39,751 nt of DNA from Actinomycetes bacterium (lineage in GTDB: Bacteria; Actinomycetota; Acidimicrobiia; Acidimicrobiales; SZUA-35), in NCBI GenBank assembly GCA_024276425.1, contig JAJRXF010000121.1, positions 1-39,751 on the forward strand, in the 5' to 3' direction. Positions 9,105 to 29,305 of the stretch are shown piece by piece. Both the position numbers and the translations under genes were made by a program. The stretch's first letter is position 1, and each line of letters opens with the position of its first letter. A model generated the notes under the pieces. It saw nothing but the letters and a program-made list of their open reading frames with translations, ran no database searches and was not told the origin of the DNA.

Positions 9105-9108
9105 TACG

Positions 9109-9499
9109 TGGAGCTGGGGGGAATCGAACCCCCGTCCGCCAAGGAGTCACCGCACGTGCTACGACCATTCCCGAGCAATCGATGTTGTGGTCATCGCGCT
9201 GCCGGGTCAGCGGTCCGCTACAAGAGCGAACACGACCACATAGTCTTTCCTATGCGTCAGGGGTCTTTGCCTCCTGTCAATGGTCTTTCCCATCGTCCAC
9301 CATTGCTTCTGTTGCCGGGTTGCAGTGGTCGGACCCCGCGTGACCTCACGGCTCGCAGTTTTCCTCTAACTACCTAATGAATTAGGCGGCAAGAGCGAAG
9401 TCAGCCTTGTTGGCGCTTCTAAAAGCCCTGTTTAACGAGTCTGAGCAACTCGGGTCGCATGTACGACTTCTCGTCTCGACGTCGAAACCGGTCAGCCCC
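9109..9499 (-). ncRNA. ssrA: Transfer-messenger RNA (tmRNA)
   Basis: Rescues ribosomes stalled on truncated mRNA and tags the product for proteolysis. The mature 5' end GGGGCUG (9499-9493) pairs with the 3' sequence CAGCUCC (9116-9110), giving a 7-bp acceptor stem with a G-U pair at the third position, the alanine identity element; the unpaired A at 9109 is the discriminator. The T-arm GGGGGTTCGATTCCCCC is complete. The CCA tail is not fully encoded: only the C after the discriminator matches by chance. The tag frame lies at 9382-9414. Length is about 391 nt, normal for a one-piece tmRNA. smpB, often close to ssrA in actinobacteria, is not in this window. Confidence 0.95.
9382..9414 (-). other. 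tmRNA proteolysis-tag reading frame
   Basis: Ten codons from the resume codon GCC at 9414-9412 to TAA at 9384-9382 encode ANKADFALAA. With the alanine brought by the charged tmRNA the tag is AANKADFALAA. It ends in the ALAA degron recognised by ClpXP-type proteases and has the usual length of the family. Confidence 0.93.
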
Positions 9500-17829: not shown

Positions 17830-17918
17830 AGGCGGTTGAGGCTAGCGAGGAGAACGGGGTGGTTCGTTCGAATAAGGAAGCGATTGGGATCCGGTCCGGA
17901 AAACGGAACGAATCCACA

Positions 17919-17944
17919 TGGTGGAACAAGTAAAGACTCCACCA
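17919..17944. promoter_or_regulatory. Inverted repeat upstream of the formate dehydrogenase operon
   Basis: TGGTGGA at 17919-17925 and TCCACCA at 17938-17944 are perfect reverse complements with a 12-base spacer. They lie 60-85 bases before the proposed fdhA ATG, in the region that must hold promoters for both this operon and the divergent proS. An operator is plausible but not shown. Confidence 0.4.
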
Positions 17945-18003
17945 GTGAGAAACCATGGTCGATGAGGCGGCGTCCCTGTGGATTGGGTGCGATACTGACC
18001 AGC

Positions 18004-19959
18004 ATGCGATCGCCACGAAGTCCAAGGCACACCCCCAAGCAGCGTCTCACTCACCCCTGGGTGCGATACGACGGCGAGCTTCGCCCTGCAACCTGGGAGG
18101 AAGCTCTGGACAGAGTAGTCGCTGGCTTTCGAGCAACTAAGGAGACCAAGGGTGGATCCGGGTTCGCGGTTTTCTCTTGTTCGAAGAGTACGAATGAGAT
18201 GAACTACGCCGCTCAGAAGTTTGCTCGTGCCGTTTTGGGTACGAACAATATTGACTCTTGCAACCGAACTTGACACGCGCCAAGTGTCGTCGGTCTGGCG
18301 ACAGTCTTTGGTGCGGGCGGCGGCACCGTGTCCTACAAGGAGATTGAGGAGGTTGATGTCATTCTGCTTTGGGGATCCAATGCTCGTGAAGCCCATCCAA
18401 TTTTCTTTCATCACCTGATGTCTGGACTAGACAACGGGGCCAGAATGTACGCTGTGGACCCACGCCGAACCTCTTCGGCAACCTTCGCCGACGTTTGGCT
18501 GGGACTAAACCTTGGCTCCGATATCGCCATGTCCAATACGGTGGCTCGCGAAATCATCCATCAGGGTTTAGTCAACCAGAACTTCATTGACCACTCGACC
18601 ACCGGCTTTGATACTTACGCCGAATCGGTTGAACCATTCACGCTAGAGGTTGGGGCCGAGTTGACCGGGGTCCCGGCCGAGGCAATTGCGGAAATGGCTC
18701 GGGCGTATGCCACCGCGGACAAGGCTCAGATCTTGTGGACCTTGGGGATCACCGAGCATCACAATGGGGTCGACAACGTTTTTGCCCTCTGCAATTTGGC
18801 CTTGCTTACCGGTCATGTTGGGCGATGGGGAAGCGGACTGGTTCCTCTACGGGGACAGAACAATGTTCAGGGCGGAGGAGATATGGGAGCGCTCCCCAAT
18901 AAGTTCCCAGGGTTTCAGAACATCACTGATCCAGCGGCCCAGGCGAAATTTCGGACCGCCTATGGTGTCGATCTGCCGGATGAGGACGGTCTCCACCTCA
19001 CCCTGATGTTCGAGGCTATGGACCGTGGCGAAATAACCTCGGCCTACGTTATTGGAGAGAATCCCGCCGATTCCGAGGCCGATATCGAATTCGCCCGAGC
19101 GACGTTGCGCGGCCTGGACACCCTGGTGGTGCAAGATATTTTCATGACCCGCACCGCAGAGTTGGCCGACGTTGTTCTCCCGGCATCTGTGGGCTGGGTC
19201 GAGAGCGATGGCACCGTGACTTCCTCCGAGCGGCGAGTCCAGCGGGTACGGGCCGCGGTGAGTCCGCCGGGTGAGGCGAAGCATGATCAGGACATCATTG
19301 GCGAACTTGCCCGCAGGCTTGGCTATGACTGGGGGCGACCGGATTCGATCGAGCTTTGGGATGAACTGCGATCCCTTTCCCCCTTGCACGCCGGTATGTC
19401 CTATCAACGCCTCGATGCCAAAGGCCTTCAGTGGCCGTGCCCCTCCCTGGAACACCCCGGAACTCCGTTCTTGCATAGCTGGCTTTGGGACGATGATCTC
19501 GGGGGTCACCCCCCTGCACCCTTCACCGTCGTCGAAGCGGCTGGCCCAAAGGAGGAACTGAGTGTTGAGTTTCCGATGAGACTCACTACTGGACGTGCTC
19601 TGGATTCATTCAACACCGGAGTCCAAAGTGGTGGCTTTGACTCACCGATTCGTTATGGCGATGCGCTGGACATCAATCCTGCCGATGCCGCATCCCTAGA
19701 TCTGCTCGATGGGGAGCGAGTATTGGTTTCGTCTGCCCGGGGATCGGTTGAAATGCCAATCCGATTCCAACCGGAGATCCCCCGAGGTCTCACCTTTACC
19801 ACCTTCCACTTTCCAGAATTCGTTGACATCAACGTGCTAACCAGTGACGCATGGGACAAGAAGTCTGGCACCGCGGAGTTCAAGGCCGCCAGTATTCGGA
19901 TCGACAAGATTGAGGCTCCTGCCGCTGAGAACCACAGTGAGGTCGACCATCATGGCTGA
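18004..19959 (+). CDS. fdhA: Formate dehydrogenase catalytic subunit, selenocysteine-containing, body domain only
   Basis: Molybdenum or tungsten bis-MGD enzyme body (651 aa) oxidising formate to CO2. An in-frame TGA at 18271-18273, codon 90, falls in NNIDSCNRT-U-HAPSV, where relatives have Cys or Sec followed by the conserved His. A SECIS-like hairpin follows, and the frame then continues without break (VVGLATVFGAGGGT, LLWGSNAREAHPIFFHH, GITEHHNG, RGQNNVQGGGDMGA, VQDIFMTRTAELADVVLP, GVQSGGF). The N-terminal [4Fe-4S] domain normally in the same chain is missing; it is on the protein of 21748-22611. ATG 18004 is the best start, giving KQRLTHPWVRYDG, which matches the family just after the iron-sulfur domain; the ribosome-binding site is weak. 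The stop overlaps the next start by 8 bases. Confidence 0.93.
18271..18303 (+). promoter_or_regulatory. UGA selenocysteine codon with bacterial SECIS-like hairpin
   Basis: Counting the UGA as bases 1-3, bases 15-21 (18285-18291) pair with bases 27-33 (18297-18303) in a 7-bp stem with one G-U pair, closing a five-base loop GGUCU at 18292-18296. In E. coli fdhF the loop GGUCU also falls at positions 22-26 and a U at 17; here both are in the same places. SelB recognises this loop. Here U17 is paired rather than bulged. Confidence 0.88.
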
Positions 19960-21751
19960 TCTGCATCTGAGCGAGGATCTGGCCAGCGAAGCTGAAGTAT
20001 CGGCGATCGATTCCGCCATTGCTGAGCTTGGTCTTGATCCCGCCGTTGTTCAGGAGACCCCACGCCTTGTCCGCGGTGGGAATCGTCGCAGGGCAAGTCG
20101 TCGTCACGGACTCCTACCTGCTTTGCACGCACTTCAGCGTGAGTCCGGATGGATTAGTCCCGGCGGACTCAATCACATCTCGAAGGTCCTGCAGGTGCCT
20201 CCGGCGGAGGCCTACGGGGTTGCCAGTTTCTATGAGCTTTTCCGAGTCGATTCTCCTCCGGATCATGACGGCAATGTTGTTCATGTTTGTGTTGATGCGG
20301 CCTGCCAAATTGCCGGTTCGGCCAAGACTATTGCCTCCTTGGAGGCCCAGGGGGTTGCCGTGCATCGGAGTCCCTGCCTTGGTCAATGCGAACGTCCGGT
20401 TGCTCAGTTCATTCAGGGACGACAAAGGCCAGACTCAGTGGAAGCCGATGGCGTCGAGAATGGGAGCATCGATGGTGTGCTCTGGGACTTGCCCCAGAAG
20501 CACGATCCATCTCTGAAGCTCCTGGCCCGAGTCGGGCGAATCGATCCGACCAGTCTTGAGGCCTATGTGGGCAGCGGCGGCTACCGAGCCCTGGCCCGGG
20601 CCTTCACCCTTGGTGCCAGCAAGGTGGTAGAGGAGGTATTGTCCTCTGGCTTAGCGGGTCGAGGCGGTGCTGCCTTCCCTACTGGAATCAAGTGGCAGGC
20701 GGTTGCGGCCGAGTCTGGTCAGAAATACGTTGTCGCCAACGCCGATGAATCCGAGCCGGGAACATTCAAGGACCGAACCCTGATGGAGAATGATCCGTTC
20801 GCTTTGGTTGAGGCACTGACCATCGCTGGATTCGCTACCGGGGCGACAAAGGGGTGGATCTATGTTCGAGGGGAGTACCCCTTAGCCGTCCAACGACTTC
20901 AAAACGCCATTGATGCTGCCCGGGATGCTGGCTTTGTTGGCCAGGGAATCGCCCGATCCTCGATCGAGTTCGATATAGAGATTCGCCGCGGAGCCGGCGC
21001 CTACATTTGCGGCGAGGAGACTGCCCTGTTCAATTCCCTTGAGGGATTCCGAGGGGAGCCGCGGCAGAAGCCACCCTTCCCGACAACTCATGGATTGTTC
21101 GCCAGGCCCACCGCAATTAACAATCCGGAGACACTGCTCAATGTGTTATCTATTGTTCTTGATGGAGGTGAGGCTTACGCCGCCAGCGGGACCGAGGGTT
21201 CGTCTGGAACCAAGCTGTTCTGCTTGTCCGGAAACGTCGTTCGTCCGGGGATCTACGAGGTGGAATTTGGACCAACCTTGGGCGAAGTGCTCGAGTTGGC
21301 TGGGGGAGTAGTAGGCAATCTGAGAGCAATTTTGCTTGGTGGAGCGGCTGGTTCTTTCGTGGGTCCAGACATGCTGGATCTGCCACTGACCATGGAAGCA
21401 ACAAGGGATGCGGGCTTGTCTCTTGGGTCGGGAGTGATCATGGCGTTCAACGACGAGGTCGATCTTGGCGCCGTGGTTACTCGCATTGCAGAGTTCTTCC
21501 GCAATGAGAGTTGTGGTCAGTGCGTGCCTTGCCGGGTTGGTTCATTGCGTCAACATGAGCTCTTGGAGTCTTCGTTGTCCAGTTCCAGGGGTGAGGAACC
21601 GTTGGGGATAGTGAGCGGGAGTGCTCCGGCTCTGCTGCTAGAAGAGATGGACAGGGTCATGAAGGATGCCTCCATTTGTGGGCTGGGTCATACTGCGTCG
21701 ACCGCCGTGCGCTCGGCAATAGAACTTGGCCTGATGAGGAGTTCCCGGTGA
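19952..21751 (+). CDS. fdhB: Formate dehydrogenase diaphorase subunit, NuoE-NuoF fusion
   Basis: A 599-residue flavin iron-sulfur subunit that passes electrons to NAD+. Residues of about 50-155 are NuoE-like with a thioredoxin-fold [2Fe-2S] site: Cys113, Cys118, Cys142, Cys146 (CVDAAC, CLGQC). The rest is NuoF-like: GLAGRGGAAFPTGIKW (FMN/NAD), NADESEPGTFKDR, GAGAYICGEETALFNSLEG, and the [4Fe-4S] ligands in ESCGQCVPCR with a distant Cys in ASICGLGH. FdsB of soluble NAD-dependent formate dehydrogenases lacks NuoE, which is separate as FdsG; here both are fused, as in some hydrogenase and complex I-like modules. ATG 19952 overlaps the fdhA stop by 8 bases, and the stop overlaps the next start by 4. 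Confidence 0.93.
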   Translation: MADLHLSEDLASEAEVSAIDSAIAELGLDPAVVQETPRLVRGGNRRRASRRHGLLPALHALQRESGWISPGGLNHISKVLQVPPAEAYGVASFYELFRVDSPPDHDGNVVHVCVDAACQIAGSAKTIASLEAQGVAVHRSPCLGQCERPVAQFIQGRQRPDSVEADGVENGSIDGVLWDLPQKHDPSLKLLARVGRIDPTSLEAYVGSGGYRALARAFTLGASKVVEEVLSSGLAGRGGAAFPTGIKWQAVAAESGQKYVVANADESEPGTFKDRTLMENDPFALVEALTIAGFATGATKGWIYVRGEYPLAVQRLQNAIDAARDAGFVGQGIARSSIEFDIEIRRGAGAYICGEETALFNSLEGFRGEPRQKPPFPTTHGLFARPTAINNPETLLNVLSIVLDGGEAYAASGTEGSSGTKLFCLSGNVVRPGIYEVEFGPTLGEVLELAGGVVGNLRAILLGGAAGSFVGPDMLDLPLTMEATRDAGLSLGSGVIMAFNDEVDLGAVVTRIAEFFRNESCGQCVPCRVGSLRQHELLESSLSSSRGEEPLGIVSGSAPALLLEEMDRVMKDASICGLGHTASTAVRSAIELGLMRSSR

Positions 21752-22611
21752 GCAAAGAATCGATTGTCACGGTGTCTATAGACGGCAAAATGGTCTCTGT
21801 CGCGGCTGGAGCAACCCTGCTCGACGCGTGCCGACAAGCGGGAGTTGACACTCCGACCTTGTGTTACGCGGACAATCTCACGGCTGCCAACGCTTGTCGT
21901 GTGTGTGTGGTTGAGGTCGAGGGGTCTCGAACCCTGGTGCCATCGTGCTCTCGTTCGGCCGAGGACGCCATGGTGGTTCAGACTGACTCCGAACGGGTTC
22001 GGCATAGCCGCAAAATGGTGCTGGAGTTCCTTGGGTCGGGGGTTGACCTTTCCCAAGCCGACGATTTGGCCGGTTGGATTGACTACTACGGGTCTGAGCC
22101 GGATCGTTATGGTCCCGATCGGGCGATGATCAAGGAAGAAGTACGTATTCAGGACAGTCTCTATATTCGCGACTACGACAAATGTGTCCTTTGCTACAAG
22201 TGCGTTTCGGCCTGTGGTGAGGACGCCCAACATAGTTTTGCCATCGCCGTTGCTGGTCGCGGATTTGATGCCCGAATTCGCACGGAGTTTGATGTGCGCC
22301 TACCTGATTCGGCCTGCGTCTATTGTGGGAACTGCGTGGCGGTATGTCCCACCAACGCGCTCCAGTTCAAAACGGAGTTTGATCTACGCAAGATGGGCGA
22401 ATGGAAGCCAACTGAGCAAGCAGTTACCCGAACGGTTTGCTCCTATTGCGGTGTTGGTTGCAACCTTGAGGTTCACGTTCAAGACGACACCATCGTGAAG
22501 GTAACTTCGCCCGATGATCACGATGTCACAAGTGGTCATCTCTGTATCAAAGGGCGGTTCGGGTGGAGCTATGTTCAGCCTGGCCAGTCCGCCGCAGAGG
22601 AGGGTGACTAA
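21748..22611 (+). CDS. Formate dehydrogenase iron-sulfur subunit: detached N-terminal half of an FdsA-type protein
   Basis: A 287-residue electron-transfer protein carrying, in order, a NuoG-type [2Fe-2S] site (Cys39, 50, 53, 67), two [4Fe-4S] ferredoxin sites (Cys146, 149, 152, 156 and Cys190, 193, 196, 200), and the [4Fe-4S] domain that normally begins the molybdopterin subunit (Cys231, 234, 238 in CSYCGVGC, and Cys266 in LCIKGRFGW). It stops right after KGRFGWSYV, which is the point where FdsA would run on into the catalytic body. That body is the product of 18004-19959. The two proteins should assemble to rebuild the full wire from FMN to the metal centre. GTG 21748, with GAGGAG upstream and GTGA overlap with the preceding stop, is preferred over earlier starts. 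Confidence 0.92.
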   Translation: MSKESIVTVSIDGKMVSVAAGATLLDACRQAGVDTPTLCYADNLTAANACRVCVVEVEGSRTLVPSCSRSAEDAMVVQTDSERVRHSRKMVLEFLGSGVDLSQADDLAGWIDYYGSEPDRYGPDRAMIKEEVRIQDSLYIRDYDKCVLCYKCVSACGEDAQHSFAIAVAGRGFDARIRTEFDVRLPDSACVYCGNCVAVCPTNALQFKTEFDLRKMGEWKPTEQAVTRTVCSYCGVGCNLEVHVQDDTIVKVTSPDDHDVTSGHLCIKGRFGWSYVQPGQSAAEEGD

Positions 22612-25451: not shown

Positions 25452-27485
25452 TTAGGCTGGCCTTCGTCGTCGACGCCCACGGTCAGCTTTGGGTCGCTCT
25501 AAAGATTCTGGCGCCGTGGGGAAGGCCATGGCGCGAACGAAGAGCTCCTGGAAAGCTGGCTCCATAGCGGTCTCGATCTTCGTGACCAACCCCACGACGG
25601 TCTCGATTTCGGATCGCTCGGCCCCCGAAAGAAGAAGCCGCAGAGCGCCGGTCCCGGCGGAGTTGCCCGGTGAAGTGACCGTTCCCGCAGATGCAGGAAT
25701 GAGATCGATGGCAATAGCAGCTTCCGGATCAATGTGAGCGCCAAACGCACCAGCCAAGCGGATGTCGTCCACCTCGGTCAGCTCGGCGTGCTGCATAAGA
25801 AGATCGATACCGGCCTTTAGGGCGGCCTTGGCTAGCTGGATTGCGCGAACATCGTTTTGAGTGATTCGCAGCTCTGCCTGAGCCCGCCTCTTCGATCCAG
25901 CAACCGGCGAAGACCCCGGTACCAGGATGTAGGCGAAGGTTCGCTCATCGGCCACGATTCGGCCCGAAGCTTCCGCTGCTGCCCCAATCATTGATCCGGA
26001 CCGGATGACGCCCTTACGGTCGAGAATCCCGGTGGACGCCATCTCTGCCAGGACCTCGATGACACCGGAACCACAAATTCCAATAATGCCGGTGGCCGGG
26101 GGCTCGAATCCTGGTTCGTTGCTCCAGGCGTCTACCCCAATAACCCGGTAGCTCGGGAGGAAAGTAAGGGGATCAATCCGCACGCGCTCAATGGCCCCAA
26201 CGGCGGCCCGAACCCCCGAGGACAGTTGGGCACCTTCAAAGGCCGGACCCGTTGGAGATGATGCGGCAAAAAGACCGGAGTTGTTGCCCAAGACAATTTC
26301 CGCGTTGGTTCCAACATCAACCAGGAGTTGGATGTTTTCAGAATGATGAGGGCGTTCGGCCACGATTGCTGCTGCAGTGTCCGCTCCCACATGGCCAGCA
26401 ATGCAGGGGGCGATGTAGACCGCGGCGTTCACACAATCGATATCAAGCTCTGAAGCGGAGATGTTTACTGCCTTGTCGGTTTCTAATACAAAAGGAGCCG
26501 TTCCCAGTGGCACTGTGTCGTAGCCCAGAAGCAGGTGATGCATTACTGGGTTTCCAACCATAGTCATTTCGAGAATCTTGTCCCGAGAGATACCGGCCTC
26601 ACCAACGAGTTCTCCGACGAGGTCATCAAGAGCGGTACGGACCGCAGAGGTGAGTTCCTCTTCACCGCCGGGATTCATCATGACGTAGCTAACCCGGCTC
26701 ATCAGATCTTCGCCGAAGCGAATCTGGGGGTTCATTCTGCCGCTCGAAGCCAAGACCTCACCGGTAGCCAAGTCGCAGAGATGACCAGCGATAGTGGTGG
26801 AACCGATGTCGATAGCGACCCCGTAGAAGACATCAATGAATCCGGGCCAAAGGGCGGCAACCTGTGGTAGCCCATCGCGAACCTGTCGAATGGCGACCGT
26901 AACCCCAATCGCCTGGGCCTCCACCTCGGAACCGGTCGAGTTCGAGAACCCGGATGGTAGGGCTTCGACGGTCTTGGCGATCTCGATCGCGACTCGGTCA
27001 GGTATCTCTACTTCGCCAATGTCCCAGTCGCGTGCCAGGCCGACCCTAAGGAGAAGCACCGGAGGAGCAACACCATCAAGTTCGATGTAACGGAGTTCTG
27101 TCACCGGGTCGATGGTGAGGCCATCAAGGTCGACCTCCTTGCGGACGACCTGCTTATGAATTTGGCTGGATTCGGGAACGTCCACGACGACATCGCCCAA
27201 TATCACAGCAGTACAACCAAGTCGATTGCCTTCACCCAAGGGGCGCTTACCGGCGTAAGTTTCCTCCACTGAACCGAATGGGCTCAGGGATTCTTCCAAG
27301 ACCTCGAGTCCCCACTTGGGGAAGGAACCCTTGGTGGGTATGACTTGGCAGCGACCGCAGATTCCACGTCCTCCACAGACCGAATCGATGTCCACCCCAA
27401 GCTTGCGGGCGGCGTCAAGGACGGTGCAACCATCCTCAACCTCGCCCTCGATGCCCGCTGGAGTGAAGACGACCCGGTTGGTCAT
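25452..27485 (-). CDS. Corrinoid activation protein: [2Fe-2S] ferredoxin plus ASKHA ATPase (RACo-like)
   Basis: A 677-residue reductive activator of corrinoid proteins. Residues 1-100 are a plant-type [2Fe-2S] domain with Cys37, Cys43, Cys46 (CGGRGICGRC) and Cys91. A linker and the DUF4445/ASKHA ATPase domain follow, with phosphate-1 loop VAIDIGSTTIAGHL, LVDVGTNAEIVLG, ICGSGVIEVLAEM and LAGAFGAHIDPE. RACo-type proteins use ATP hydrolysis to reduce inactive Co(II) cobalamin to Co(I). The frame is open to 27647, but ATG 27485 starts MTNRVVFTPAG, where the ferredoxin domain begins, and overlaps the preceding stop as ATGA. The C-terminus ends in a basic tail. It is the last gene of the operon. 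Confidence 0.92.
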   Translation of the reverse strand: MTNRVVFTPAGIEGEVEDGCTVLDAARKLGVDIDSVCGGRGICGRCQVIPTKGSFPKWGLEVLEESLSPFGSVEETYAGKRPLGEGNRLGCTAVILGDVVVDVPESSQIHKQVVRKEVDLDGLTIDPVTELRYIELDGVAPPVLLLRVGLARDWDIGEVEIPDRVAIEIAKTVEALPSGFSNSTGSEVEAQAIGVTVAIRQVRDGLPQVAALWPGFIDVFYGVAIDIGSTTIAGHLCDLATGEVLASSGRMNPQIRFGEDLMSRVSYVMMNPGGEEELTSAVRTALDDLVGELVGEAGISRDKILEMTMVGNPVMHHLLLGYDTVPLGTAPFVLETDKAVNISASELDIDCVNAAVYIAPCIAGHVGADTAAAIVAERPHHSENIQLLVDVGTNAEIVLGNNSGLFAASSPTGPAFEGAQLSSGVRAAVGAIERVRIDPLTFLPSYRVIGVDAWSNEPGFEPPATGIIGICGSGVIEVLAEMASTGILDRKGVIRSGSMIGAAAEASGRIVADERTFAYILVPGSSPVAGSKRRAQAELRITQNDVRAIQLAKAALKAGIDLLMQHAELTEVDDIRLAGAFGAHIDPEAAIAIDLIPASAGTVTSPGNSAGTGALRLLLSGAERSEIETVVGLVTKIETAMEPAFQELFVRAMAFPTAPESLERPKADRGRRRRRPA

Positions 27486-27820
27486 GGCGTCCGGTTGGCT
27501 GTCGGGTCGGGAGAATCTTGATCGAAGCCTCCGTTCGCTACCAGGATGTTCAGCCGGTCGAGAGGAAAGGCCTCCTCTAGGGCGGCAGCCAAGGTTGCGG
27601 CAGCTTCGGCGAAATCTCCACTCAAGGGCTCTTTCTCTTGCCGCCACTCATTGACGTAGTCTGATGAGGTGGTGATGTTGGCCACCATGGCGGCCCGATC
27701 GATAGCTTTCTGGAAACGGGGTTTGAGAAGTATCTGGTGCTTCTCACCCGGAGATCGGGCGTTTACCTGAGCGGGGATGTCCCGCCAATAGATCGTGATG
27801 AGTTGGGCGCCTCGTGCCAT
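27482..27820 (-). CDS. 'Virulence factor' domain small protein of corrinoid operon
   Basis: A 112-residue protein that begins ARGAQLITIYWRDIPAQVNA, then FQKAIDRAAMVAN and SDYVNEWRQE. This is the small domain filed in databases as virulence factor, despite no known role in virulence. From memory it often lies beside corrinoid methyltransferase and RACo-like genes, and here it sits in such an operon, so an accessory role in the corrinoid cycle is likely. ATG 27820 is 2 bases after the DUF1638 stop; its own stop overlaps the activator start. Confidence 0.8.
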   Translation of the reverse strand: MARGAQLITIYWRDIPAQVNARSPGEKHQILLKPRFQKAIDRAAMVANITTSSDYVNEWRQEKEPLSGDFAEAAATLAAALEEAFPLDRLNILVANGGFDQDSPDPTANRTP

Positions 27821-27822
27821 GT

Positions 27823-28515
27823 CTATTCGCTCAATGTCTGATTCGATGGGCCGGGGAACCCCGGCATCGGCTGGATGGTAACCGGCGTTGCCAAGGCATC
27901 ACGCAATCCTTCGAGCCCGCTGTGGCGCTGCTCGAAGGACAGCCCAAGTTTTGTGGCAGCTTCCTGGGCCAGAACACTGAGCTTCCGAAGCTGATCTTGG
28001 TCGTTGGTCTGGGAGAGATAGACAACTCGGCTGTAGTGGGCGAAATACATATCGCGAAGCTCGGGGTGAGTGTGCATCTTGAGTGGACGCCAGATCAGCT
28101 GATCGAAATGGCGGGCCAGATAATCAGTAAGGAAGAACGTACCGAGTTCTTCGTCATGCAAGGACCGAAAATTCTCAGCCCCAGTAAAAAAGGAGTAGCA
28201 ATGGTCGCCGGGGAGGCGTTCGATCGGAATCTCAAGCTCGCTCTGGAGACGAGCCATTCTGGAGTCCAGGAGCCCCCCGGTCCCACAATCGCCGTAGCCA
28301 AGCACGATGCGGGAGATTGTTGTTCCAGAGTTGCGAGCCTTCTCGATCGCCTCCGCTATGACAGATTCGACCGCGGCAGGTATCTTGGCTGGCTGGCTGT
28401 GGAGAGGAGCCGGGAGGTAGCTGGCCTTGACGCCAAGAGCCCGGAGTTCGCGGACCAGGGCGCCGCAGGCGATAATCAGGGTTTCTGCCTCATGAATTGG
28501 TGACGACTGGGCCAC
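27823..28515 (-). CDS. DUF1638 protein of corrinoid operon
   Basis: A 230-residue soluble protein with the DUF1638 marks: TLIIACGALVREL at the start, IVLGYGDCGTGGLLD near residue 70, and PGDHCYSFFTG near 102. Conserved Cys and His (CGAL, GDCGTGG, GDHCY) suggest a metal or cofactor site. The family is known from methanogen and bacterial methylotrophic clusters, with no fixed reaction. GTG 28515 has GGAGG upstream. It is 6 bases after the corrinoid protein stop. Confidence 0.85.
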   Translation of the reverse strand: MAQSSPIHEAETLIIACGALVRELRALGVKASYLPAPLHSQPAKIPAAVESVIAEAIEKARNSGTTISRIVLGYGDCGTGGLLDSRMARLQSELEIPIERLPGDHCYSFFTGAENFRSLHDEELGTFFLTDYLARHFDQLIWRPLKMHTHPELRDMYFAHYSRVVYLSQTNDQDQLRKLSVLAQEAATKLGLSFEQRHSGLEGLRDALATPVTIQPMPGFPGPSNQTLSE

Positions 28516-28521
28516 CGGGCT

Positions 28522-29256
28522 TCATCCTCCGGCTAGAGAGGAGCGACGAGCGGTGACAAGTTCCTTGGCCACTTCTGCTGCCACGGCGGCGTCAGAGCAG
28601 TATGCATCGGCCCCAACAGCATCACTGAACTCCTGATTGAGGGGAGCCCCACCGACGAGGACGATATAGTCATCCCGTCTGCCCAACTCAACGAGCGTGT
28701 CGATGACGACCTTCATGTATGGCATTGTCGTGGTTAGCAGGGCTGACATGCCAAGAATGTCGGCATCACTTTCGGTCAAGGCTTCGATGAAGTTGTCAAC
28801 GTCGGTGTTGATTCCGAGATCGACGACCTCAAATCCGGCCCCTTCCAACATCATCGCTACCAGGTTCTTGCCGATGTCATGGATGTCGCCCTTCACGGTG
28901 CCGATCACGACCTTCCCGATGGCCTCAACCCCAGTCTCGGCTAGCAGCGGTCGCAGGATCTCCATCCCGGCCTTCATGGCATTGGCGGCAAGGAGTACCT
29001 CTGGGACGAAGAGAATCCCATCGCGGAAGTCGTCGCCGACCACCCGCATCCCCTCAACCAGAGCCTTATTGAGGGTCGTCTCGGCCGTCCAGCCCCGGTT
29101 CAGGAGGATTTGGGTACCTTCGGCAATCTCGTTCTTCATTCCGTCGTAAAGATCGTCGTGCATCTGAGCCACGAGTTCGTCGTCGGTAAGGGTGGATAGA
29201 TCGAGATCGTCGACTTCCTCGTCGGACAGGTTTCCCTCAGCTGGCAAATCGGACAT
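28522..29256 (-). CDS. Corrinoid (cobalamin-binding) methyl-carrier protein
   Basis: A 244-residue methyl carrier of the MtbC/MtgC/MetH-B12 type. Residues of about 28-110 form the four-helix cap (LYDGMKNEIAEGTQILLNRGW, FVPEVLLAANAMKAGME). Residues of about 113-240 are the Rossmann B12 domain with the cobalt ligand motif DxHxxG (GDIHDIGKN, His126), SALL near 171 and VGGAPL near 202. It takes a methyl group from a substrate-specific methyltransferase and gives it to another, usually tetrahydrofolate. It has an acidic N-terminal extension. The frame opens earlier, at 29301; ATG 29256 has GAAAGG at good distance. It is the first gene of the operon; no partner methyltransferase is seen in the window. 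Confidence 0.93.
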   Translation of the reverse strand: MSDLPAEGNLSDEEVDDLDLSTLTDDELVAQMHDDLYDGMKNEIAEGTQILLNRGWTAETTLNKALVEGMRVVGDDFRDGILFVPEVLLAANAMKAGMEILRPLLAETGVEAIGKVVIGTVKGDIHDIGKNLVAMMLEGAGFEVVDLGINTDVDNFIEALTESDADILGMSALLTTTMPYMKVVIDTLVELGRRDDYIVLVGGAPLNQEFSDAVGADAYCSDAAVAAEVAKELVTARRSSLAGG

Positions 29257-29305
29257 GGGAGACCTTTCTGGCTTGGTGGTAGGACATCTGAAGGGAGCCA
29301 CATGC

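Follow-up and report, generated by a model that had tools for sequence, protein, structure and literature searches.

A probable selenocysteine formate dehydrogenase with its catalytic chain divided between two genes in an acidimicrobial genome

Three genes at 18004-22611, on the forward strand of the window (the whole 39,751-nucleotide stretch of DNA analysed here), divide between two of their products a catalytic chain that in the usual enzyme is a single polypeptide. From their sequences it is highly likely that together they encode one NAD-linked selenocysteine (Sec) formate dehydrogenase, with its Fe4S4 domain supplied in trans. Three points in this are inferred: Sec is inserted at an in-frame UGA, the two chains join to form a single catalytic unit, and the enzyme uses formate and NAD+.

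The catalytic gene and its UGA codon

The first of the three genes, 18004-19959, encodes a catalytic chain of 651 residues with Mo/W-bisPGD domains and without an Fe4S4 domain, and is very probably, on its family match and active-site residues, a Sec-containing formate dehydrogenase. Its codon 90 is a UGA (18271-18273) lying within the motif NRT-U-HAPSV. When TGA is read as Sec, 18004-19959 is a single frame, as the first-pass annotation had proposed, with no further TGA before the stop codon that ends it, itself a TGA; the companion claim, that the two sides of the TGA belong to one family protein, is borne out by a continuous match of the read-through product (residues 12-633) to positions 51-672 of the Fdh-alpha model TIGR01591, at 614.8 bits as against 390.6 for the runner-up model, NasC. 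The chain starts at ATG 18004, which by eye has no clear Shine-Dalgarno sequence, and in relatives the start falls near the same domain junction. Residue 90 (Sec, written as Cys), His-91 and Arg-283 do not vary among the 13 catalytic chains aligned. Catalytic roles in formate dehydrogenase belong to the Sec/Cys-His pair and to the arginine of the motif RGQNNVQG. The eight best solved relatives of the chain are all titled as formate or CO2-to-formate enzymes; the AlphaFold model of the chain itself is poor, with a mean pLDDT of 55.9. Automatic annotation had been predicted to split this gene, and plain ORF calling does fragment it (17836-18273 and 18328-19959), in line with a passage of PMC10100899, although the annotated E. 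coli record SK1144 labels fdhF as selenocysteine-containing.

The reading of codon 90 agrees with its relatives: the corresponding codon is TGA in each of the 80 named loci that are the best of at least 577 confirmed relatives, even though the scan used the pattern NRTCHAPS and was able to detect Cys forms. Among these best 80 of at least 577, the sole title other than that of a metagenome-assembled genome is Ilumatobacter nonamiensis (strain YM16-303, locus L081), whose catalytic chain is 75% identical and whose contig stops ahead of NuoEF; this agrees with an acidimicrobial origin. At 149 of 150 loci, a count in which some contigs figure twice and which takes in paralogous as well as fused genes, the codon at the Sec site is TGA in 143, TGC in five and TGT in one. 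A second Sec codon was considered for two relatives (L026 and L161) and rejected, the extra in-frame TGA proving on inspection of these two to be the terminal stop of the gene. One paralogue (L070, genome G037), 37% identical, has no NuoEF or third-gene match alongside it and was excluded from the SECIS counts given below.

Predicted selenocysteine insertion

A SECIS element lies downstream of codon 90, and its conservation supports it more strongly than its folding energy. The upper hairpin (18285-18303) pairs 18285-18291 with 18297-18303 around the loop GGUCU (18292-18296), which occupies nucleotides 22-26 from the UGA and is separated from it by 18 nucleotides; in the fold a lower stem, 18277-18281 with 18310-18314 (positions 7-11 with 40-44), enlarges the element to 18277-18314. 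The 24-nucleotide hairpin of 7 bp has a folding energy of -9.2 kcal/mol (z -2.94; one of 200 shuffles equally good), and the corresponding figures for the 50 nucleotides from the UGA are -22.9, z -2.38 and five of 200. Energy alone is weak evidence, since a related hairpin (L053) reaches only z 0.52 over 50 nucleotides (z -1.91, 10 of 200, for its 22-nucleotide hairpin alone) and E. coli fdhF itself z -0.08 over the same length. The description of the hairpin by the first-pass annotation as the same as that of fdhF stands for the letters GGUCU and for the distance of 22-26 nucleotides. It does not extend to the upper stem, which in E. coli has one bulged base in the fold and here is continuous, so that the phrase "E. 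coli-like SECIS" was an overstatement. The bulged U of the E. coli element has a role in the binding of SelB.

Among 114 distinct relatives, compared as 63-mers, pair 18-30 is formed in every one, as C-G in 102 and G-C in 12 (shuffle mean 92.4; none of 1000 as high), and pair 9-42 of the lower stem in 78 (shuffle mean 66.3; three of 1000 as high). The other core pairs are almost invariant or vary on one side. The outermost pair of the upper stem, 15-33, is formed in 39 (shuffle mean 28.9; none of 1000 as high); the seven-base-pair stem noted earlier does fold in this sequence, but the conserved stem is six pairs, not seven. An extension of the element through pairs 12-39, 13-36 and 14-35 was rejected, these being unconserved and formed in 14, 42 and 61 of the 114, respectively. 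A passage of PMC13188914 characterises bacterial SECIS elements by an apical loop of 3-9 nucleotides, an upper stem of 4-16 bp, a G in the first two nucleotides of the loop, a spacing of 16-37 nucleotides and a minimum free energy of at most -7.5; the present hairpin falls within these bounds, with a 5-nucleotide loop, a stem of 6-7 bp, a spacing of 18 nucleotides and an energy of -9.2 kcal/mol.

Synonymous codon choice points to the same stretch. With 12 loci excluded (L070, L183-L187 and L189-L194), 138 Sec loci remained, 119 of them distinct over codons 86-139. In a test over 256 codon positions, which ignores kinship, a factor common to all positions, the ten most biased positions all lie within codons 88-104. 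Codon 97 is GGT in 119 of 119 Sec forms, where codon use predicts 22.8, and codon 98 is CTG in all 119, where 45.6 are expected; four Cys-containing split homologues (L183-L186) have GGA or GGG at codon 97. The two codons adjoining the UGA on its upstream side (18265-18270 in the window) are, in these relatives, biased as strongly as the SECIS element: codon 88 is CGA in 75 of 119 (15 expected) and codon 89 is ACT in 87 (11 expected). The letters CGAAC found there could pair with GUUCG at positions 36-40, but such a helix would cross the lower stem of the SECIS.

The source genome (3.95 Mb in 203 contigs, 96.1% complete) holds a tRNA-Sec with anticodon TCA (65.7 bits, above the Rfam cut-off), adjacent genes for SelB (262.8 bits) and SelA (395.5 bits) on contig C147, and SelD (380 bits), all three proteins above their cut-offs, which supports the earlier statement that the organism decodes Sec. 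The selD gene (L019, C2:16019-16936) has an in-frame TGA of its own at GAG-U-GCK, which we take to be the usual Sec site of SelD, and SelD of this genome is probably itself a selenoprotein. SelA, at C147:6732-7895, shows a peculiarity seen across the order to which the window belongs: its match to the family model begins only at positions 22-73, as it also begins late in class groups f22 and f25, most other groups starting at 1-5; from the sequences the N-terminal region would appear to be divergent or missing. In the class, selA is present in 62 of 62 sampled genomes with the gene, as against 139 of 198 overall (hypergeometric 1.2e-12, ignoring kinship). Among 28 genomes selected out of the phylum search, selA (E up to 1e-20) accompanies 23 of 23 genes with TGA, in one of these as two pieces each below the cut-off, and one of four with Cys; it is also present in the one genome whose formate dehydrogenase gene breaks off before codon 90.

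Against this background, it is scarcely conceivable that the TGA is a sequencing error or the lesion of a pseudogene: it recurs throughout the best 80 of at least 577 relatives, a TGA lies inside all 62 class matches, and the hairpin downstream covaries. A UGA translated by a reassigned or suppressor tRNA, rather than as Sec, is just as improbable. Against it stand the tRNA-Sec and the selA, selB and selD genes found here and the association of the gene with selA across the class, and the loop codon GGU is kept throughout the Sec forms and replaced in the four Cys split forms. Reading of codon 90 as Sec is accordingly the interpretation adopted in what follows.

The three-gene order and its spread

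The second gene, 19952-21751, encodes a fusion of NuoE and NuoF, a diaphorase with NAD and FMN binding, in which the NuoE-type, NuoF and NuoF Fe-S Pfam domains are found above their cut-offs, while its matches to the NCBIfam NuoE and NuoF models are below the curated ones. The third gene, 21748-22611, starting with GTG, encodes an electron-transfer chain with [2Fe-2S] and 4Fe-4S ferredoxin-type domains, followed by a Molybdop_Fe4S4 domain (PF04879; 22420-22578) that carries CxxCxxxC...C and the lysine of CIKG. ATG 19952 overlaps the stop codon of the catalytic gene (19957-19959), and GTG 21748 that of NuoEF (21749-21751), an overlap at both junctions that suggests translational coupling.

Positions 1-49 of TIGR01591, absent from the catalytic chain, are matched by the end of the third chain (53.8 bits), so that the two matches are complementary, with one position between them; this division of the chain had escaped the first-pass annotation. 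The split falls between ...CIKGRFGWSYV and RLTHPWVRYDGELRPATWEEAL, a point at which the chain is continuous in E. coli FdhF and in L189. Cysteines 231, 234, 238 and 266 of the third chain, together with Lys-268, are invariant in all 21 aligned sequences, and Lys-268 corresponds to Lys-44 of E. coli FDH-H (motif CLKG/CIKG). According to a passage of PMC12176258, the substitution K44R left about 7% of the activity of the E. coli enzyme. The AlphaFold model of the third chain is middling (mean pLDDT 63.8); in a Foldseek search with it the best match was 6tg9, the alpha chain of an NAD-dependent formate dehydrogenase, which may be taken as supportive only. Long tails on the third gene of four relatives (L080, L090, L132 and L142) were rejected, the BLAST match having overrun a stop codon directly after the Fe4S4 domain; L137 has a genuine tail of about 32 residues.

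The proposed working of the enzyme is then as follows. SelB, acting on the hairpin just downstream, would direct the reading of UGA codon 90 as Sec, and Sec-90, as a ligand of Mo or W, would act with His-91, Arg-283 and the Mo- or W-bisPGD cofactor to convert formate into CO2, the metal taking two electrons. The third product would provide, in trans and from its C-terminal domain, both the conserved lysine and the proximal [4Fe-4S] cluster, and electrons would pass from the metal to this cluster, to the other clusters of the third chain, and through the NuoE-NuoF fusion to NAD+. A match to FdhD in the genome scores 133.2 bits, below its cut-off of 140.9.

An enzyme of a different make-up was also considered, in which the Sec chain is active without the Fe4S4 domain of the third gene, the third chain is a separate NuoG-like carrier, and the proximal cluster is missing or comes from another protein. 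The resemblance of the third chain to HoxU and to hydrogenase subunits would allow for this, but it is improbable: the domain in question matches the missing positions 1-49 of the formate dehydrogenase model and keeps its four cysteines and lysine in every sequence aligned, the third reading frame stops shortly past it, and the third gene is repeatedly found next to the catalytic one. Slightly less improbable, though still unlikely, is that the complex acts on some other substrate, or that it operates as a CO2 reductase, not a formate dehydrogenase. Its superfamily is a broad one, and the match lies below the equivalog cut-off; on the other side, Fdh-alpha is by far the best model, the titles of the solved relatives all concern formate or its formation from CO2, and residues 90, 91 and 283 do not vary. 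A formate dehydrogenase with its Fe4S4 domain in trans is the reading preferred here.

Judged by gene order and match scores, the split arrangement is common to many actinobacterial relatives. Within the family, 18 of 20 loci have the same gene order and strand, the exceptions being one locus that runs off its contig end and the paralogue. The order is likewise found at 69 of the 80 named loci, which are biased to near kin as the best of at least 577 confirmed relatives; in three of these 69 the third gene is truncated where the contig ends, and in one, L144, a gap of 2.5 kb follows the catalytic gene. At the remaining 11 the contig stops at most 0.65 kb past the last gene found. The titles of these best 80 of at least 577 are mostly Acidimicrobiia, -ales or -aceae, and those naming Spirochaetaceae (L135) and Acidobacteria (L150) may belong to misnamed bins. 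At 20 loci of the phylum, picked so that dissimilar types were represented, the gene is split in 14 (at L187 with the third gene only in part) and fused in six, of which L189-L191 are FdhF-like without NuoEF or the third gene and L192-L194 have NuoEF and one long alpha chain. By score, most genomes not having been inspected individually, 62 of 198 sampled class genomes have a match above 660 bits with one or two TGA codons inside each (their position unchecked), separated by a gap from the next matches at less than 570 bits; on the same basis 40 of 396 sampled phylum genomes have a match above 850 bits, 35 with TGA, four without a stop and one cut off.

A quick maximum-likelihood tree was built from 59 catalytic chains, 57 of them different; in it the 47 split chains form one clade with an SH-aLRT of 100, joined at 99 with its sister group, the fused Sec FdhF-like chains L189-L191; the tree has several long outgroup branches, and the tool warned of long branches meeting. 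Four Cys split chains, from one genus with genomes of 6-10 Mb, form a single clade within the split chains and group with two Sec chains on a branch of 92 that is not starred. The change from Sec to Cys is likely, though not proven, to have followed the split. One genome of that genus, G522 (locus L184, codon TGT), has a Cys-type split enzyme with selA still present, while selA was not found in the other three (G350, G380 and G506); G522 is possibly an intermediate in the loss of Sec. As to the origin of the split itself, a long alpha chain may have undergone fission and rearrangement, or a short FdhF may have handed its Fe4S4 domain to a partner. Identity does not tell which type was the source of the displaced domain, at 46-50% to L189-L191 and 43-47% to L192-L194. 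Somewhat less securely than the assignment of the present locus, but with the balance of the evidence in favour, the split enzymes would constitute a distinct class of formate dehydrogenase across many Actinomycetota lineages, with an active site assembled in trans, with the gene for the metal chain at the head of the operon, which brings the UGA close to the operon start, and with the upstream CGA-ACU perhaps aiding Sec insertion.

The neighbourhood of the three genes includes, on the reverse strand, a RACo-type corrinoid activator (25452-27647), a 230-residue protein without an NCBIfam match (27823-28515) and a corrinoid protein nearest to glycine-betaine MtgC models though below their cut-offs, and on these matches 25452-29301 is possibly a methyl-corrinoid island. 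The one-carbon units of methylated compounds may be the source of formate. Over 93 loci, with flanks of up to 10 kb and the window taken whole, recurrent neighbours are SerA (19), ETF subunits (14 and 10) and a DAO plus GCV_T protein (11). Near a split formate dehydrogenase of another actinobacterial family lies the start of a formate-tetrahydrofolate ligase (L163:4603-4887; PF01268, 104.4 bits). The window also contains a tmRNA gene at 9106-9499 on the reverse strand (97.9 bits).

Comparison with known formate dehydrogenases

Passages of PMC13188914 and PMC5029168 rank Sec formate dehydrogenase as the most widespread selenoprotein of bacteria or among the two most widespread, and an actinobacterial example with sel genes, from Corynebacterium aurimucosum, is described in a passage of PMC2830990. 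A Sec formate dehydrogenase accompanied by Sec machinery is thus ordinary in itself; the division of its catalytic chain is less so. No description of a split enzyme was found in the open-access literature searched, nor in passages of PMC7325909, PMC6147048, PMC10100899, PMC7331816, PMC13397495, PMC9751293 and PMC13188914, which is weak evidence of novelty, as subscription papers lay mostly outside the search. With a natural split at the junction of metal site and relay, one can ask whether the relay is able to dock from outside, and electrochemistry gains a scaffold in two pieces. Pipelines that apply the Fdh-alpha cut-off and treat UGA as a stop may miss such genes, which by score occur in about one third of the sampled Acidimicrobiia (62 of 198).

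Neither half reaches the curated Fdh-alpha cut-off of 666.25 alone. The unsplit L189 and L192 score 778.4 and 778.8 bits on TIGR01591, and the scores of the two pieces sum to 668.6, just above the cut-off, which is arithmetic and not a test. Since it has no Fe4S4 domain on the same chain and scores below the curated cut-off, the enzyme is filed here as a split variant and not as a plain FdhA equivalog.

The fused Sec enzymes of FdhF type (E. coli FdhF and L189-L191) share with it the Sec ligand, the UGA with a SECIS downstream, and the catalytic domains, but in these enzymes the one catalytic chain includes the Fe4S4 domain as its N-terminus; stretches of 10-17 kb around L189-L191 revealed neither NuoEF nor a third gene of ferredoxin type. 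The NAD-dependent multisubunit enzymes (Rhodobacter FdsA, 6tg9; Methylorubrum FDH1, 7vw6; L192-L194, L205 and L207) have, as here, a NuoF-type diaphorase and a NuoG-like Fe-S region. In them NuoEF comes first, and the Fe-S region, the Fe4S4 domain and the catalytic domains form one chain, whereas in the present locus the catalytic part has a gene of its own, which stands first. Of the features of the FdsABG/FDH1 type, then, the NuoE and NuoF diaphorase is present in the operon and the fusion of the Fe-S region to the catalytic domains is absent. Two of the fused NAD-type alpha chains, L192 and L193, from two genomes of one genus of the class, also have TGA at the Sec site. By length and title, a NuoG-like Fe-S chain apart from the metal chain also occurs in the tungsten-containing aldehyde oxidoreductase 9mqx (chain A, 247 residues), but the match to it stops at residue 259 of the query, the Fe4S4 domain lying at 249-301, and its title is that of an aldehyde enzyme. 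In the solved formate dehydrogenase chains that match both pieces (6tg9, 9wxb, 7vw6 and 7e5z), and in E. coli FdhF, a single chain holds the metal site together with the first Fe-S relay.
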